A DNA stretch of 64,000 bases, taken from positions 62,001-126,000 of the forward strand of contig NZ_CP018099.1 in assembly GCF_001886815.1 (NCBI RefSeq), given 5' to 3'. This document shows, one piece after another, positions 35,183-42,516 of this stretch. The notes beneath the pieces were generated by a model, which worked only from the letters and a program-made list of their open reading frames with translations, was not told the origin of the DNA and ran no database searches. Made by a program: the position numbers and the translations under genes. The stretch's first letter is position 1. Every line of letters begins with the position of its first letter. Source of the DNA: Caldithrix abyssi DSM 13497 (GTDB lineage Bacteria; Calditrichota; Calditrichia; Calditrichales; Calditrichaceae).

Positions 35183-38100
35183 CTAACCGTTTTCGCCTGT
35201 TAAACGCGCTATTTGCAAAATGTAAAAACGCAATTCCTGCTGTTCTGCTTCCGTTAGAGGTTGGCTTTCAATCCGAACGATGCGTTCCACATCGTGCAGA
35301 GCGCGCATCACGTGGATGGGAACCTCGCTGCCTTCCTGGCGGGAGATGGTCAGGTACTGCAGGGCGGCCAGTAAAAACTGTTTCAGGTTTTCGTCCGTAA
35401 GCGCCCGCAAACCGGAAGATATCTGTTCAAAATTCCGCTGGAACTTTGTAAAGTTCTGGCTTAAACTCTCTCCCGCAGAATTTTGTTGTTTCATCAGGTG
35501 CATAATGGCCTGCGCCAGCTGCACAAAACTTTCCACCTGCATGGCTACCTTTTGTTCGATTAAGCCCCAGATTTTTGTTCGCCAGCGCGTAATTTGAACG
35601 GGAATTTCCAGCAGCTCCTGCACCTGCATTTGCCATTGTTGCGGCAGCGGCGGTTCTATTTGGTCAAACAGCTTTTGCGGGCGCGTATTGAACAGATCAG
35701 GCTGTAACAACACGGCCAGGTCAGGACGCAGAGCAGGCAAAAGGTTAATCTTAAAATGCCCATTTTCGAAAAAGTCGGTCACCGGTAAGCCGTGTCGTCG
35801 AATGAGCTCCTTTTGAAAAAGAGGAATAAATTCATTGATTAGCGCCATGTCTTCTCTGAGGGAACTGACCGCGCTATTGCCGGGCGGAAAAAAAGGCTCT
35901 AACCTTGACCAGAATTTCAGATCAATGTCCTGGTACAGGCGCAAATCTTTTAAGATTTCGTAAACCGGTAGATGGGGCAAAATCCGTTCCTGCAAAAGCA
36001 ATTGCGGGCTGAGCAAGCCCTGTTGTTCGTTGACAAACTCCTTAAGGGCGCGGAACAACCCCGTGGTCAACTGAGCGATGCCCAGAATCATGGTTTGCGC
36101 CCGATTGTGGCCGATGGCGCGCAACATGGTGCCATGTTTGGCCTGGGGCAGTACACGCGAAAGTCTTTCAATGACGCGTTGTCCGGCATCGCCGGTCTGA
36201 ATTCTGCCCGGGCGTACGGTGGGCCGGTCTCTGAAGGCAGGCACCATGCGCGAGATGAAATAAGAAGCCAGATGAATGCCCACGATGTCTTCTTCTCTGC
36301 CGTACACAATTTGCTTGAAATTGGTCATTCGAATTTGTAGAAACTTTTCGAAAAGCGGGTCGGTCCAGCCCAGGGTCAGGCGTTTTAATTCTTTTTCGCC
36401 GCGTTCGCCAAAGCGCAGACGCGTTTGCACCAGAGGCTCGCTGGCACGGACGATCTCCTTTTCAAAATATGTTTGTAAGTTCTTGTAATGAAACAAAAAA
36501 TTGGCCCGCTCAAAGGCGGAGATCATGCGTATCTTTTCAGAGATGGTGCTTTGAAAGGTGCGCAAATCGCCGCTACTGATGACGCCGCGCAGGGGCGTTA
36601 CGGCAAAATCGCAGGCTCTGGCCGAAGAGGCGTTCAGCTCTTTGAACAGGCGTTGTCTGTTCTGTCGGTTAAGGGTAAAGGCCGGCAGGCTGCCCCGGTC
36701 GTCATAAAAACCGCCCTGACGTTGCATGGGTTCGCCACTACCCAGCTTGAGGCGAATTTGACCGGCCAGACCCTTGCGCGCCAGCCAGCGCACCACTTTG
36801 AAACGCGTTTCTTTGTAAAGGTGGGAAGCAACGGTCTGGCTGACCTGCTGACTTAAATCGGACCCGGCTACAAAAATTTCACAAAGCATCTCGCGCAGCC
36901 TGTTTTCCACGCTCTGGCTGGTGGAATGGTGCGTTTGAGCGTAGGCCCACAGTTCGTCTAAATAGCCTTCGATGTTTTTTACCACGTCAATTTCTTCAAA
37001 TAAGGGGATGATGCGAATAAAAGGCATGGGCAATTCCGGCGCATTGCGCAAAACGGCTTCACGCCGGGCGCGCAGCTTTTGTTCCACCTTGATGATGGCA
37101 TCGGAACGGCTGCACATACTGATTTGCAGAGCCAGAATCAGCCCCGGATTGCCAAATCGCGCACCCAGTTCGTTGATCTCCGTTAGATTGAAAACGGTGG
37201 TGTCAATGGCAAAAGGATCATGGGCGGTAATCATATTCTGGTGGATGCGCGGCGTTAAAGCAAAGCGTTTTAGCAGATCGCGGTAAAAGATCAAACGGTA
37301 AAATAGTTCCGGATGGCCGAGATGGTTTAAAAGTAAATGAAGGTGCTGGCGCAGGGTTTTACGCAACTGTTTGTTCAGTTGAAAATAGTATTCCAGGTTT
37401 GAGCGCCGCTGCTCCCGCAATTGCAGCATTTTGCGCTCAAGGCGATCGTTGTGCTGCCAGAGCACGGTTAAGGGATCGGGTACCAGATGCAGTTTCATGC
37501 CGATTTTTCGCCAGCGTGAAGGATGAACCGAAGCCGGCGACAGGCTGCGGTAGCGTTTTTCCAGTTGATTGGTCAGGTGCGTAATCTGATTGAGCAATTG
37601 CCAGAATTTTTTCCGGCGTTGCGGAAAACTTACCAGGGCGTCGTTGAGCGCGGCGTCAATTTTTAAGTCCGGCTCCAGTTTTAAAAGCAGTTCAAGAATT
37701 CGGGCCATGCGAGCCACGTTCTTCAGCAGCACAGCGGCAATCAGGCGGTGGCCCTGTCCGGAAGGGCGGGAGCTTCCGTCCCAGTCGCCCCAGTAGGAGA
37801 GAAAGGTTGGCAATTCCTCCTTCCCCTGCAATGCGGCGAGCAGTTCTGCGTCGTTGAGCGAATCGAGATCCAGCAACAACTCGTCCGATTCCTGTATGGA
37901 GTTAATGGGCACGGAGCGGCCTTTGAATTCGTTAAGAAGCGCCCGGGCCAGAGCCTGTAATTGACCTGCGGCAATTTGCTGTTGAGTCAAAAAAGAGTCG
38001 ATGATTTGCCGGGCCTGTTGATCGACCTGAATGCTAAAGATTTGCGTGGGGTGCACCGTCCGGTCAAAAAGGCGCGTAAAAAAGCGCTGTTGTCGGCGAT

Positions 38101-40786
38101 TCAGGTCGTCTTTGTAAAATTCATTTTCCAGAATTTCCCGGAGCAGTCGTTGCCTTTCTGCGCTGTCCTTTTGCCGCCATTTCTGCCAGATGAAAAAGCG
38201 GGAGTGGAATTGGGCGCGGATACTCTGCAGGCGTTCGGGTAAAAATTGCCTCTGGAAGGTTGTTTGCGACTCCTGCATTTGTTTGTCGTTGGCGCTGTGC
38301 TTTTCGAATTCTTGCAAAGCCAGCTCTTTTAATTGAGAAAGCAAAGGTTGCCAGGGCTCGCCAACAGGCGCGGGCTCTGAGATTAGTAGCGCTTTTTGAA
38401 ATAAGCTCGCTTCCTGGGCGATGATGCGGTTTAAGTCGATCAGCACGCGGCGCGTCTGGTAGTAGAGCCTTTCTCCGCTGATATGGCCGCCCAGGGTCAG
38501 GCGAAAGGCTTTACGCGCCATCTGGTAACCGGCGGCGGTGCGGGCAAAGGTGGTTAAAGGCACCAGGCCGATTCCCTGATTGGCCAGAATGGTGGAAAGC
38601 GAATCCAGTGAAATGCCTGCCGGAAGCGCCTCAATGATCATTAGAGGATACATGCTGCCCTGCGGCGCCTGAATTCGTATTTTGAAAGGATTGCGTTCGC
38701 CTGGCAGCTCATCCATGGCCCGTTGCAGGGTGGCCATTCGTTCGGCAAACAGTTGATTTCTGAAATGCCAGTAACTTTCGACCCTTTCTCTGCCGTTTCG
38801 GTAAAACAGGTAGGCAATAAGCAGCGGCAGGCGGTGCGGTTTAATCTCTTTTAAATGAATTTCAAATTGGCTGCGTAAGGAGGAATCCGGTATTTCAAGC
38901 ACCGTTAAGCGCGCGCCGGCAAAGCTGTCGGTTTTGGAGAGCGAATGACAGGTGATGAGCCGTTTTACTGCATCGGCGTGCAGCAGGCCTTTTTTAATAA
39001 GTTTATTGATGGTCTGACGGGCGGTGGGCGTGCGGCGGGGCTCCGGCCAGGGACCGACATTCTGGTACGAAAGGTCGTCAATCAAATAAAGCCCTTTGCT
39101 TATGGCCCAGCGAAAAATTTCTTCTAACGCCTTTTGCGGAATTAAGGCTCCGGTGGCATTGTGCGGGTTGTTAATGATCAGCGCCCCGCTGGTTAAAAGG
39201 TCCGCGTCTTTTTCAATCAATTTTTGAATTTCTTTGATGACTTCGGCGGATGAGAAGTTTTCCATGGGGTTGATGGGCAAAACGCGCACCTGGGGAAAAC
39301 AGTGTTCGTACGTCCAGCCCAGGTCAAAGGTAATGACTTTTTTCACCGGCCCGTGGAAGCCTAAAATGCCCAGCGCCGTGCGCGCCGAGCCGCTGACTGC
39401 CAGGCAGGCGTTTCGGTCGTATTGCGGGTGAACGGCCACAAAAGCGTCTAAAAAACGCTCTTCCAGCGCCTGCGCCCATTGCGGATGGTCAAGCCGATCA
39501 AAAAAGTTTTCAATCAGCTCCCAGACCGTTTCTCCGGCCCAGACATCGTCCGGCAGAGATTGCAAAGGGGAAAAACTTAGGCGGCGGTGGATGACGCGCT
39601 GGGCTGAATGTTCCGCCCTTTGGGCTGTTTGCAGCAAACGGGTTGTAAGATCGGCCGGATGGCGCGACGCATTTTCAAGGCGACGTTCCAGGCGGTGGAT
39701 CAGGCTGCCGGCGGTTCTTAATGATGGCAAATCCGGCTTCTGGCTGGCATCAACCTGTTCTCTTGCTGAGGGCGCGGATGGGACATTCTGTTGTAAAAGG
39801 TAGTAAAGAAGCTCGGCTTCCGGAGCGGACGGCGTTCCCTTTAACTGAAAATGAATGGTTTCCAGATGTTGAATGTAATCGCTGCGTCCGGCGACAATGA
39901 TGATGGAAAGGTCCTTAAGCTGCGGACGGAAAACAGCGGGCGTTAAAAAGCGCAGTACGCGTTGTTCCAGCAGGGCCTCGCGCGCTAAAGAAAGATGGTT
40001 TGGCGCGTCGTTAACTTCTACAATGAAAAGCGGGAACTGGAGCGCAAGCTGGCGCGCCTGCCGCCGGAAATGTTCTGACGGAATTGAACCGAGGATCAAA
40101 AACTGCGGACGTTCTGGTTGTTGATTAAAAAAATGGGAAATCAATTCCAGCGCAGACATTTCGTCTTGCGGTAAAACCTGAAAACGGAGCGCAGAAAAAT
40201 CGCCGGCGCAGGCAGGTTCTGGCCGGTTAAACAGTAAAATGGTTGCCGGAAGCCTTTCCAGGAATTGATTTAAAGTAAAAAACAGAATGCGTAAATTTTC
40301 GTTCAGGCCGCCGCTGCCCAGCATCAATTCTTTTTGGCCGTTTTGCCGACCTGTGTCATAAAGGAGCGTTTCTAACTGCCCGTTTTCAAACCAGTCTTGA
40401 ATAAAACGGATCAGCGGCGTTGGGTTGCGCCAGGAATACCCGCCGCGCGCCATGTAAGGGACACAGGAGGGCAGGCTGTTGAAGACAAACAAAATCTTTT
40501 CGATTAAATCATCGTCAAGCTGTAATTCTTGTAAATAATTTTTAAAGGATTGCGCATCGTTCAGAGCCCCGGCCTCATCCGTTTGAAAAACCAGTTGCCC
40601 AAAAGCGCGCGTCAACTCTTCATCCTGAATAGGATGGCCGATGTGGAAATTAACGCGTTCTTCGGCTTTGACCGGCGCAGCAGAGGTCGCTTCGCTGATT
40701 TCGGAAACTTTGGCCGCCTTTAAAGACTTTAGTTTAAAATAATCTTGAATCATTGTTTTGCGTTCAGTTTTTTTATGTTTGTTCAA
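35183..40786 (-). CDS. Giant protein with PLP-dependent aminotransferase-like domain; rest unassigned
   Basis: 1,867 residues from a TTG, or 1,856 from the ATG at 40753; neither has a strong ribosome-binding site. Residues about 45-330 look like a degenerate aminotransferase fold (VNFHIGHPIQDEEL, LGSGGLNENLRILFFTL) without a recognisable Schiff-base lysine. Residues about 400-800 form a fold-type I PLP domain with all expected signs: SGSARTALGILGF loop, NNPHNATG, the LIDDLSYQNVG Asp/Tyr pair, SLSK with Lys near 618, and a terminal FRLTLGG Arg. The last thousand residues are helical, rich in Leu, Arg and Gln, and I recognise no family. No signal peptide or membrane segment is seen. The next gene upstream encodes an SPFH-like protein. 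Function unknown. Confidence 0.8.
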   Translation of the reverse strand: MNKHKKTERKTMIQDYFKLKSLKAAKVSEISEATSAAPVKAEERVNFHIGHPIQDEELTRAFGQLVFQTDEAGALNDAQSFKNYLQELQLDDDLIEKILFVFNSLPSCVPYMARGGYSWRNPTPLIRFIQDWFENGQLETLLYDTGRQNGQKELMLGSGGLNENLRILFFTLNQFLERLPATILLFNRPEPACAGDFSALRFQVLPQDEMSALELISHFFNQQPERPQFLILGSIPSEHFRRQARQLALQFPLFIVEVNDAPNHLSLAREALLEQRVLRFLTPAVFRPQLKDLSIIIVAGRSDYIQHLETIHFQLKGTPSAPEAELLYYLLQQNVPSAPSAREQVDASQKPDLPSLRTAGSLIHRLERRLENASRHPADLTTRLLQTAQRAEHSAQRVIHRRLSFSPLQSLPDDVWAGETVWELIENFFDRLDHPQWAQALEERFLDAFVAVHPQYDRNACLAVSGSARTALGILGFHGPVKKVITFDLGWTYEHCFPQVRVLPINPMENFSSAEVIKEIQKLIEKDADLLTSGALIINNPHNATGALIPQKALEEIFRWAISKGLYLIDDLSYQNVGPWPEPRRTPTARQTINKLIKKGLLHADAVKRLITCHSLSKTDSFAGARLTVLEIPDSSLRSQFEIHLKEIKPHRLPLLIAYLFYRNGRERVESYWHFRNQLFAERMATLQRAMDELPGERNPFKIRIQAPQGSMYPLMIIEALPAGISLDSLSTILANQGIGLVPLTTFARTAAGYQMARKAFRLTLGGHISGERLYYQTRRVLIDLNRIIAQEASLFQKALLISEPAPVGEPWQPLLSQLKELALQEFEKHSANDKQMQESQTTFQRQFLPERLQSIRAQFHSRFFIWQKWRQKDSAERQRLLREILENEFYKDDLNRRQQRFFTRLFDRTVHPTQIFSIQVDQQARQIIDSFLTQQQIAAGQLQALARALLNEFKGRSVPINSIQESDELLLDLDSLNDAELLAALQGKEELPTFLSYWGDWDGSSRPSGQGHRLIAAVLLKNVARMARILELLLKLEPDLKIDAALNDALVSFPQRRKKFWQLLNQITHLTNQLEKRYRSLSPASVHPSRWRKIGMKLHLVPDPLTVLWQHNDRLERKMLQLREQRRSNLEYYFQLNKQLRKTLRQHLHLLLNHLGHPELFYRLIFYRDLLKRFALTPRIHQNMITAHDPFAIDTTVFNLTEINELGARFGNPGLILALQISMCSRSDAIIKVEQKLRARREAVLRNAPELPMPFIRIIPLFEEIDVVKNIEGYLDELWAYAQTHHSTSQSVENRLREMLCEIFVAGSDLSQQVSQTVASHLYKETRFKVVRWLARKGLAGQIRLKLGSGEPMQRQGGFYDDRGSLPAFTLNRQNRQRLFKELNASSARACDFAVTPLRGVISSGDLRTFQSTISEKIRMISAFERANFLFHYKNLQTYFEKEIVRASEPLVQTRLRFGERGEKELKRLTLGWTDPLFEKFLQIRMTNFKQIVYGREEDIVGIHLASYFISRMVPAFRDRPTVRPGRIQTGDAGQRVIERLSRVLPQAKHGTMLRAIGHNRAQTMILGIAQLTTGLFRALKEFVNEQQGLLSPQLLLQERILPHLPVYEILKDLRLYQDIDLKFWSRLEPFFPPGNSAVSSLREDMALINEFIPLFQKELIRRHGLPVTDFFENGHFKINLLPALRPDLAVLLQPDLFNTRPQKLFDQIEPPLPQQWQMQVQELLEIPVQITRWRTKIWGLIEQKVAMQVESFVQLAQAIMHLMKQQNSAGESLSQNFTKFQRNFEQISSGLRALTDENLKQFLLAALQYLTISRQEGSEVPIHVMRALHDVERIVRIESQPLTEAEQQELRFYILQIARLTGENG

Positions 40787-40934: not shown

Positions 40935-41897
40935 TCAGGTTGTCTTTTTCTGCAAAACCTTTTGCAACGTTTGTTCGATTATTTCCAGCACGTTTATCCC
41001 TTTTTGTAAATCGCCGCCGGTTAAGGAGACCACCGTTTTGGCGTTTTTTAGTTGTTGACTGGCCTCGGCCAGGCGTGCGATTTGCGGCGAAAGCAGGATT
41101 AATTCCGGGTGTTGTTCAAAAATTTTCAGTTCTTCCTTTTCCAGCTCCATTTGCAGGCGTCGCCGTTCCAGCTCCTGTTCTACCTGATAGCGGGATAATT
41201 CAGCTTCCCGTTGCTGTTCTGTTTTTTGCAGTTCAAGTTGTTTGAGGCGTAATTCGTGTTCCATCCGGCGGATTTTTTCATCGGTTTCAAAGCGAAAACG
41301 ACTGGCTTCGAGTCGGGCTTTCTGGTTGACCTTTTCGGTCTTTTCACGAATGCGGGCTGCTTCCTGCTGTTGCATGGCCTCGGCAATTTCACTGTCCAGG
41401 GGTTCAATGAGTTGAACGTTGACGCCCAATAATTTCAGACCTAATTTTTGCGCTTCTTTGATTAAATTAGTTTGCAAAAAGTCTTGCAGGTCTTTACTGC
41501 TCAGCTCTTCGATTTCCAGAGCCTGGCAAAAACCTCCGGTCAACGCCTGCACAAAAAGCCCCAATTCTTTACTGGCCTTTTGTACCAGCGCGGAATTCCA
41601 ACCGCCGGCGCGCACCAGCTCGGTTAAATGCGCGTCATCCGCGGCGGTGGAAATGGTTAGTTTGATTTTTACGGGAAGCTTTCCACGCGCCTCGCTTTCA
41701 AATTCCATGTCCATGGAGTGAAGAGTGGCCGGCACGGCAAGGCTGAAGTGACGCGGATAAAAACGGGCCTTGCGTTTAATGATTTTACCCTGTACATCGG
41801 CCAGAACGATCTGGTCCGGGCGGCGCTGACGAAATTCAAAAAGAAAAGCAAAAACGATGATTAAAAGAATAAAAATACTGAGGAAAACAGCGGTCAT
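40935..41897 (-). CDS. SPFH/band 7-like membrane protein with coiled coil
   Basis: The start is the ATG at 41897 behind GGAG; 320 residues. One N-terminal membrane segment (TAVFLSIFILLIIVFAFLF) precedes an SPFH-like domain (about 50-185; QALEIEELSSKDLQDFLQ, KLLGVNVQLIEPLDSEIAEA) and a long charged coiled coil (about 190-275, rich in Glu, Arg and Gln), then a short tail. This plan resembles stomatin/flotillin-type membrane scaffolds. Similarity is by architecture, so the family call is moderate. It precedes the giant PLP gene with a 148 bp gap on the same strand. Confidence 0.6.
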   Translation of the reverse strand: MTAVFLSIFILLIIVFAFLFEFRQRRPDQIVLADVQGKIIKRKARFYPRHFSLAVPATLHSMDMEFESEARGKLPVKIKLTISTAADDAHLTELVRAGGWNSALVQKASKELGLFVQALTGGFCQALEIEELSSKDLQDFLQTNLIKEAQKLGLKLLGVNVQLIEPLDSEIAEAMQQQEAARIREKTEKVNQKARLEASRFRFETDEKIRRMEHELRLKQLELQKTEQQREAELSRYQVEQELERRRLQMELEKEELKIFEQHPELILLSPQIARLAEASQQLKNAKTVVSLTGGDLQKGINVLEIIEQTLQKVLQKKTT

Positions 41898-42078: not shown

Positions 42079-42516
42079 ATGTCGAAAAAGCAAAGGCGCA
42101 CCATGCCCCAAAAGAAAAGAATCGCTTTAATCGCCCACGATAACCGTAAAAGGGATTTACTGGAATGGGTTCGCTTTAATAAACATGTTTTAAGCCGCCA
42201 TCATCTTTTTGGCACCGGCACCACCGGCAGTCTGATTAAAGATGAGCTGGCCCTGCCCATTCACTGCTTTAACAGCGGCCCCCTGGGCGGCGATTTACAG
42301 ATTGGCTCTAAAATTGTAGATGGAGAAATCGATGTATTGATCTTTTTCTGGGACCCTTTGGAAGCCCAGCCGCACGATGTGGATGTTAAAGCGCTGCTGC
42401 GCGTGGCGGTGCTGTACAATATTCCCACGGCCAGCAACCGCGCCACGGCCGATTTTTTAATCTCATCGGTTTTGATGGAGCAAACCTACGAACGGGAAAT
42501 TCAGTTGATGAAATAA
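42079..42516 (+). CDS. mgsA: Methylglyoxal synthase
   Basis: 145 residues, the family's usual size. The phosphate-binding HLFGTGTTGSLI, GGDLQIGSKIVDGEIDVLIF and FFWDPLEAQPHDVDVKALLR segments contain the conserved catalytic Asp and His residues. It converts dihydroxyacetone phosphate to methylglyoxal and phosphate, a bypass used when phosphate is short or sugar phosphate accumulates. The ATG has GGAG 7 nt upstream. It is divergent from the SPFH gene and no glyoxalase is adjacent. Confidence 0.94.
   Translation: MSKKQRRTMPQKKRIALIAHDNRKRDLLEWVRFNKHVLSRHHLFGTGTTGSLIKDELALPIHCFNSGPLGGDLQIGSKIVDGEIDVLIFFWDPLEAQPHDVDVKALLRVAVLYNIPTASNRATADFLISSVLMEQTYEREIQLMK

Follow-up and report, generated by a model that had tools for sequence, protein, structure and literature searches.

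Class I aminotransferases (PF00155; T. thermophilus AspAT, LysN and glutamine aminotransferase) are fold-type I enzymes that normally form homodimers of ~400-aa chains with two sites, and in these homodimers a tyrosine reaches into the PLP phosphate site of the neighboring subunit. PEP carboxylases (PEPCs) include the bacterial and plant enzymes (PF00311; E. coli 1jqn, maize and Arabidopsis PPC), with an overall length near 900-1,000 aa, and the free-standing archaeal-type enzymes (PF14010; C. perfringens 3odm), of about 485-560 aa. In E. coli PEPC, residues H138, R396, E506, D543, R587, R699 and R713 belong to the active site. As for the SPFH/Band_7 proteins (stomatin, flotillin, HflK/C), those of bacteria rarely have, to our knowledge, a defined soluble enzyme partner.

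Here, we describe a giant protein of Caldithrix abyssi in which a degenerate aminotransferase domain (AT1), an apparently working one (AT2) and a PEPC-like barrel follow each other in a single chain, encoded next to an SPFH gene. We hold this three-part architecture and the SPFH pairing to be highly probable. Among the papers searched, none dealt with a PEPC-aminotransferase fusion, with a link between SPFH proteins and PEPC or with such a pairing.

A giant gene conserved in three bacterial groups

In the window, i.e., the whole stretch of 64,000 nucleotides that was analyzed, the giant gene is a single unbroken frame on the minus strand (35183-40786), which confirms the uninterrupted 5.6 kb reported in an earlier note made from the sequence. 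Counted from a TTG codon the frame has 1,867 codons; because homology begins around the ATG at 40753, this codon was taken as the start (1,856 aa) and all residue numbers are counted from it (Table 1). The gene is single-copy in its own genome (4.98 Mb, one-contig assembly). No family model covers the first 400 or the C-terminal 1,080 residues, and annotation pipelines would therefore at best call the protein an aminotransferase.

Table 1. Features of the giant gene and its SPFH partner, in window coordinates
Feature	Residues	Coordinates	Strand
Giant gene, 1,856 codons from ATG; alternative TTG start 11 codons upstream possible	1-1856	35183..40753	-
N-terminal arm, invariant NFHIG-P; aligns with GEPD segment of class I aminotransferases	1-45	40619..40753	-
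AT1, aminotransferase large domain in degenerate form, catalytic Lys absent; Y100 (Tyr70*-like) and K305-G-T-P kept	46-325	39779..40618	-
Linker; low model confidence; zero invariant residues	326-409	39527..39778	-
AT2, PLP-dependent aminotransferase large and small domain	410-776	38426..39526	-
Predicted Schiff-base lysine of AT2, invariant	K607	38933..38935	-
Variable helical lead-in; zero invariant residues	777-870	38144..38425	-
PEP carboxylase-like eight-stranded barrel and inserts; H901, R1169, E1253, D1299, R1345, R1510, R1545	871-1700	35654..38143	-
C-terminal helical part; conserved GENG at end	1701-1856	35186..35653	-
SPFH/Band_7 partner gene, directly upstream of the giant gene, same orientation		40935..41897	-

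The phyletic range, which the earlier note had proposed to map, extends over Calditrichota (12 of 40 genomes), Acidobacteriota (4 of 396 sampled genomes of the phylum) and the Ignavibacteria group (41 of 294 sampled genomes of the class), with full-length relatives ~40-57% identical end to end. Intact genes nearly always have frames of 1,800-1,930 aa, and the domains of the protein were not found apart among the relatives in the sampled genomes. Since 31 non-redundant relatives from the three groups keep 246 of the 1,856 positions invariant, the giant gene is not a chance frame. Some genomes (L027:9971-15551, G662, G506 and G514) have frame breaks or single stops in the giant gene or in its SPFH partner, owing either to sequencing error or to pseudogene formation. 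Most acidobacterial copies fall within those of Ignavibacteria in a tree, which suggests lateral transfer; two copies of the acidobacterial sample (L065, L066) branch at other points within Ignavibacteria, which may reflect either transfer or contigs that were misbinned. The protein had no match in plasmids or viral contigs, nor did any defence-system model match the locus.

Two unequal aminotransferase halves

AT2 has what characterizes a class I aminotransferase. It matches Pfam Aminotran_1_2 (PF00155) with E 2e-11 and 44.2 bits, against a cut-off of 19.7, and carries the catalytic Lys/Asp/Tyr/Asn/Arg set. When AT2 is aligned (E 8e-18) with a profile of aminotransferases in which an AspAT-like protein from the same genome comes first, N532, D560, Y563, K607 (K618 when counted from TTG) and R615 pair with the catalytic positions of the class (N194, D222, Y225, K258 and R266, respectively), and the motifs NNPHNATG, D560/Y563 and SLSK align with those of a true class I aminotransferase. 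The complete fold-type I PLP site claimed earlier, with its NNPHNATG, Asp/Tyr pair and SLSK Lys near 618, is thus confirmed by the Pfam match and the alignment, and AT2 is apparently a working PLP aminotransferase, as judged from its sequence. R458 and K305 are candidate dicarboxylate-specificity residues in an ambiguous alignment; the equivalence of R458 with K109 of the T. thermophilus enzyme, the distal-carboxylate residue, was discarded, as hhalign puts that Lys at A457.

Regarding the first ~325 residues, the claim that they are a dead aminotransferase twin without the Lys is supported by the strand order of an AlphaFold2 model and by a shuffle-tested profile alignment. The model of residues 1-776, built on an 18-sequence alignment (pLDDT 85.3, pTM 0.85), resembles class I aminotransferases (VIA Z about 28-30; Foldseek E down to 2.7e-13), and in it AT1 has seven large-domain strands (at 141, 170, 189, 217, 242, 266 and 285) in the same order as those of AT2 (450, 472, 488, 523, 556, 599 and 616). 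The AT1 profile aligns in register with aminotransferases by hhalign at a score of 33.5, whereas the best of 120 block shuffles reached 25.8. Single AT1 sequences do not stand out from unrelated proteins in hhalign, and the AT1 profile had no relevant match among PDB sequences. In an alignment of the relatives, Lys is not conserved where SK would be expected, K305 being the only invariant Lys in the AT1 region.

The two halves keep complementary residues. In a global alignment, Y100 of AT1 pairs with the interface tyrosine of aminotransferases and NFHIG-P with their GEPD segment; AT2 lacks such N-terminal elements and AT1 lacks a small domain. Moreover, the VIA alignments of single aminotransferase chains, judged by their first and last residues only, run from residue ~1-30 of the model to 776, as if the N-terminal arm packed on AT2. 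The N-terminal half of the model therefore looks like a single-chain pseudo-heterodimer with one PLP site formed by two unequal halves, whereas class I aminotransferases are homodimers with two sites and lack the fused PEPC-like domain.

A PEP carboxylase-like C-terminal half

The rest of the chain had been described as about 1,000 residues of unknown fold and as a large helical module of unknown role. Here the earlier interpretation, which stood for the PLP site and its dead twin, has to be replaced: as modeled with AlphaFold2 (pLDDT 79.6, pTM 0.81), the C-terminal ~1,080 residues are a PEPC-like eight-stranded barrel, and the helices are the PEPC-type scaffold and inserts around it. All 12 Foldseek matches at E<=0.001 are PEPCs, the best being archaeal-type 3odm (E 2.0e-8) and E. 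coli 1jqn (3.1e-8), and VIA gives PEPCs Z scores of 16.6-19.7, the next fold being malyl-CoA lyase at 13.6. With 3odm, 484 of 527 residues align at 3.6 A and 19% identity; with bacterial and plant PEPCs, which share the fold, the helical inserts and a similar overall length, identity in structural alignment is about 11-15%. The half thus belongs, at the level of fold, to a well-characterised family, an outcome that the earlier note had named as contrary to its proposal, and no Pfam or NCBIfam model covers it above cut-off.

Sequence profiles point the same way with less force. By hhalign, the half scores 35.8 against PEPC with 18 sequences (E 0.0056) and 40.9 with a 34-sequence alignment, a value exceeded by 1 of 120 shuffles. 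The profile alignment matches the PLFE, SD and glycine/arginine blocks to PEPC, and its register is reproduced by several PEPCs individually, the archaeal type likewise. Detection from sequence alone was abandoned, as single-sequence hhalign scores lie within the noise of 186 unrelated proteins, and it is the fold comparison that decides.

The seven E. coli positions named above correspond to H901, R1169, E1253, D1299, R1345, R1510 and R1545 in the same order, those of E506, D543 and R587 having been placed by hhalign and the other four by eye from motif order and strand ends. One after another, they fall at strand ends of the predicted barrel; six are invariant in all 31 non-redundant relatives and R1345 is kept in 30, with one gap. 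The giant thus keeps the PEPC positions that bind metal and most of those that bind phosphate. K546, H579 and R581 of the bacterial and plant enzymes are, in contrast, replaced by Q1302, L/M1337 and S/C/A/N1339, and Q1302, K1336 and WGDWDGS-RPSGQGH are new invariant residues in the motif regions of the giant. As K546, H579 and R581 are likewise missing from two archaeal-type sequences, 3odm and L034 (3odm reads SDTAMSYG and ILGCGSLPFRG there), their loss alone is no argument against PEPC activity.

The archaeal-type enzyme shares with the giant the barrel fold, the TPRI and TFQS motifs (3odm), the positions of H138, R396, E506, D543, R587 and R713, and small or hydrophobic residues at those of H579 and R581; it differs in being about half as long and unfused. 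The giant chain ends in GENG in most relatives, a conserved C-terminal end that it has in common with E. coli PEPC, which ends in RNTG. The protein fails the Pfam gathering scores of both PF00311 and PF14010, the models of PEPC; with K546, H579 and R581 missing it is not filed with the bacterial type, nor, given its length, with the archaeal type. Within the PEPC superfamily, it is best placed in a third branch of its own.

The SPFH partner and possible functions

A feature missed by the earlier note is the conserved SPFH partner. By ORF clustering, 27 of 31 loci have an SPFH/Band_7 gene (~320-330 aa) immediately upstream of the giant and co-oriented with it, and tblastn adds another (L024); the loci without an adjacent one (L021, L025 and L029) are from related Bryobacteraceae. 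The gap between the two genes is often 10-60 bases, and ORF clustering of the 31 loci revealed no other conserved neighbor. Among the 294 genomes of the Ignavibacteria class, the giant is found in 41, the partner in 41 and both in 40, on the same contig in 39 of these; the two unpaired cases (one giant alone, one SPFH alone) lie on contig fragments or ends. The two genes are thus a near-obligate two-gene module. The partner resembles stomatin, flotillin and HflK/C in its hydrophobic N-terminal segment and in its match to PF01145 (Band_7; 18 of 20 partners), and it has a charged coiled-coil-like tail. It forms, however, a subfamily of its own, with a conserved C-terminal NPEL--LSPQ-ARLAEASQ--NA-TVV-L block, which in the sampled Ignavibacteria-class genomes occurs only with the giant, contig-edge exceptions aside. 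In C. abyssi, a methylglyoxal synthase-like (MGS-like) gene, which is not a conserved neighbor, diverges from the pair (42079-42516, plus strand), and near four acidobacterial loci (L016, L018, L021, L029) a cluster of PLP-enzyme-like ORFs of 367-810 aa matches the AT2 profile.

Our main reading, to which we give a probability of about one half, is that the giant is an SPFH-associated PEPC-aminotransferase that makes oxaloacetate and transaminates it, probably to aspartate. The C-terminal barrel, whose residue set resembles the archaeal type of PEPC, would carboxylate PEP with bicarbonate, and AT2 would then transaminate the resulting keto acid, the most likely donor being glutamate and the most likely product aspartate. 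AT1 would be a fixed second subunit that has lost the PLP lysine and supplies the residues that cross the interface in homodimers, so that the enzyme would have one PLP site and not two. Oxaloacetate would be handed over between the PEPC-like and AT2 sites, and the enzyme would be anchored to the membrane, or enclosed there, by the SPFH protein. The computation itself shows the predicted folds, the conserved active-site positions and the near-obligate SPFH pairing. PEPC activity, the identity of the amino acid, the hand-over, the pseudo-dimer contacts and the binding of the SPFH protein are all features that we infer. A fuller version, in which a third PEPC branch and a one-site pseudo-dimeric aminotransferase constitute a membrane metabolon that is enclosed by SPFH protein and converts PEP and bicarbonate directly into aspartate or a different amino acid, we put forward tentatively and would rather doubt than trust.

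The same architecture could also perform other chemistry, the barrel acting on another enol- or keto-acid or catalyzing a different C-C bond reaction and AT2 making a different amino acid or an amine, possibly for a membrane-linked product, as the SPFH partner might suggest. The exchange of K546, H579 and R581 and the new invariant motif residues would fit this, as would aminotransferase matches spread over many substrates and a patchy, accessory distribution with ordinary PEPC alongside in some genomes; since archaeal-type PEPC (3odm and L034) differs at the same three residues, however, and the giant retains the positions for metal and most of those for phosphate, we consider it somewhat unlikely. 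A regulatory or structural protein, whose two dead enzyme domains would sense PEP, aspartate and PLP and control or build an SPFH membrane assembly, would agree with the clear degeneration of AT1 and with the near-obligate partner. It is nonetheless improbable, as AT2 and the PEPC-like barrel have active-site positions, the catalytic lysine included, that are invariant across 31 divergent relatives and that a dead enzyme would not need. An artefact, be it a chance frame or separate genes joined in assembly, is already refuted by the same frame of ~1,850 aa in independent genomes of three groups; no support for it was found, and the breaks in some MAG copies (L027, G662) are as expected of drafts.

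If true, the synthesis of aspartate from PEP by the giant would represent a third PEPC lineage and lead from PEP to an amino acid within one chain; an aminotransferase homodimer would have become a pseudo-heterodimer with one site, and the enzyme would be coupled to an SPFH protein. With defined soluble partners of SPFH proteins being so rare, the pair makes the question of SPFH scaffolds directly testable.

Regarding the metabolic setting, the Pfam search of the C. abyssi genome returned neither a PF00311 or PF14010 PEPC nor a PF02436 pyruvate carboxylase, and the only enzymes that the genome paper (PMC5317091) mentions at this node are an ATP-dependent PEP enzyme and malic enzyme. The genome has an ATP-type PEPCK and separate aminotransferases, and the fusion therefore does not simply stand in for a missing enzyme. 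Several other hosts carry the giant with an ordinary PEPC; the fusion is thus not simply a replacement, and the idea that it occurs only where PEPC is missing does not hold. Finally, elsewhere in the C. abyssi genome (L069, C1:3089289-3090362), a class I AspAT-like protein lies within a 785-aa frame, whose ~385-aa C-terminal part has a P-loop-like GPRGTQKT and no Pfam match. A partial PEPCK_ATP match is found about 2 kb away, and L069 may be a further case of an aminotransferase fused to another part at the PEP/oxaloacetate node.
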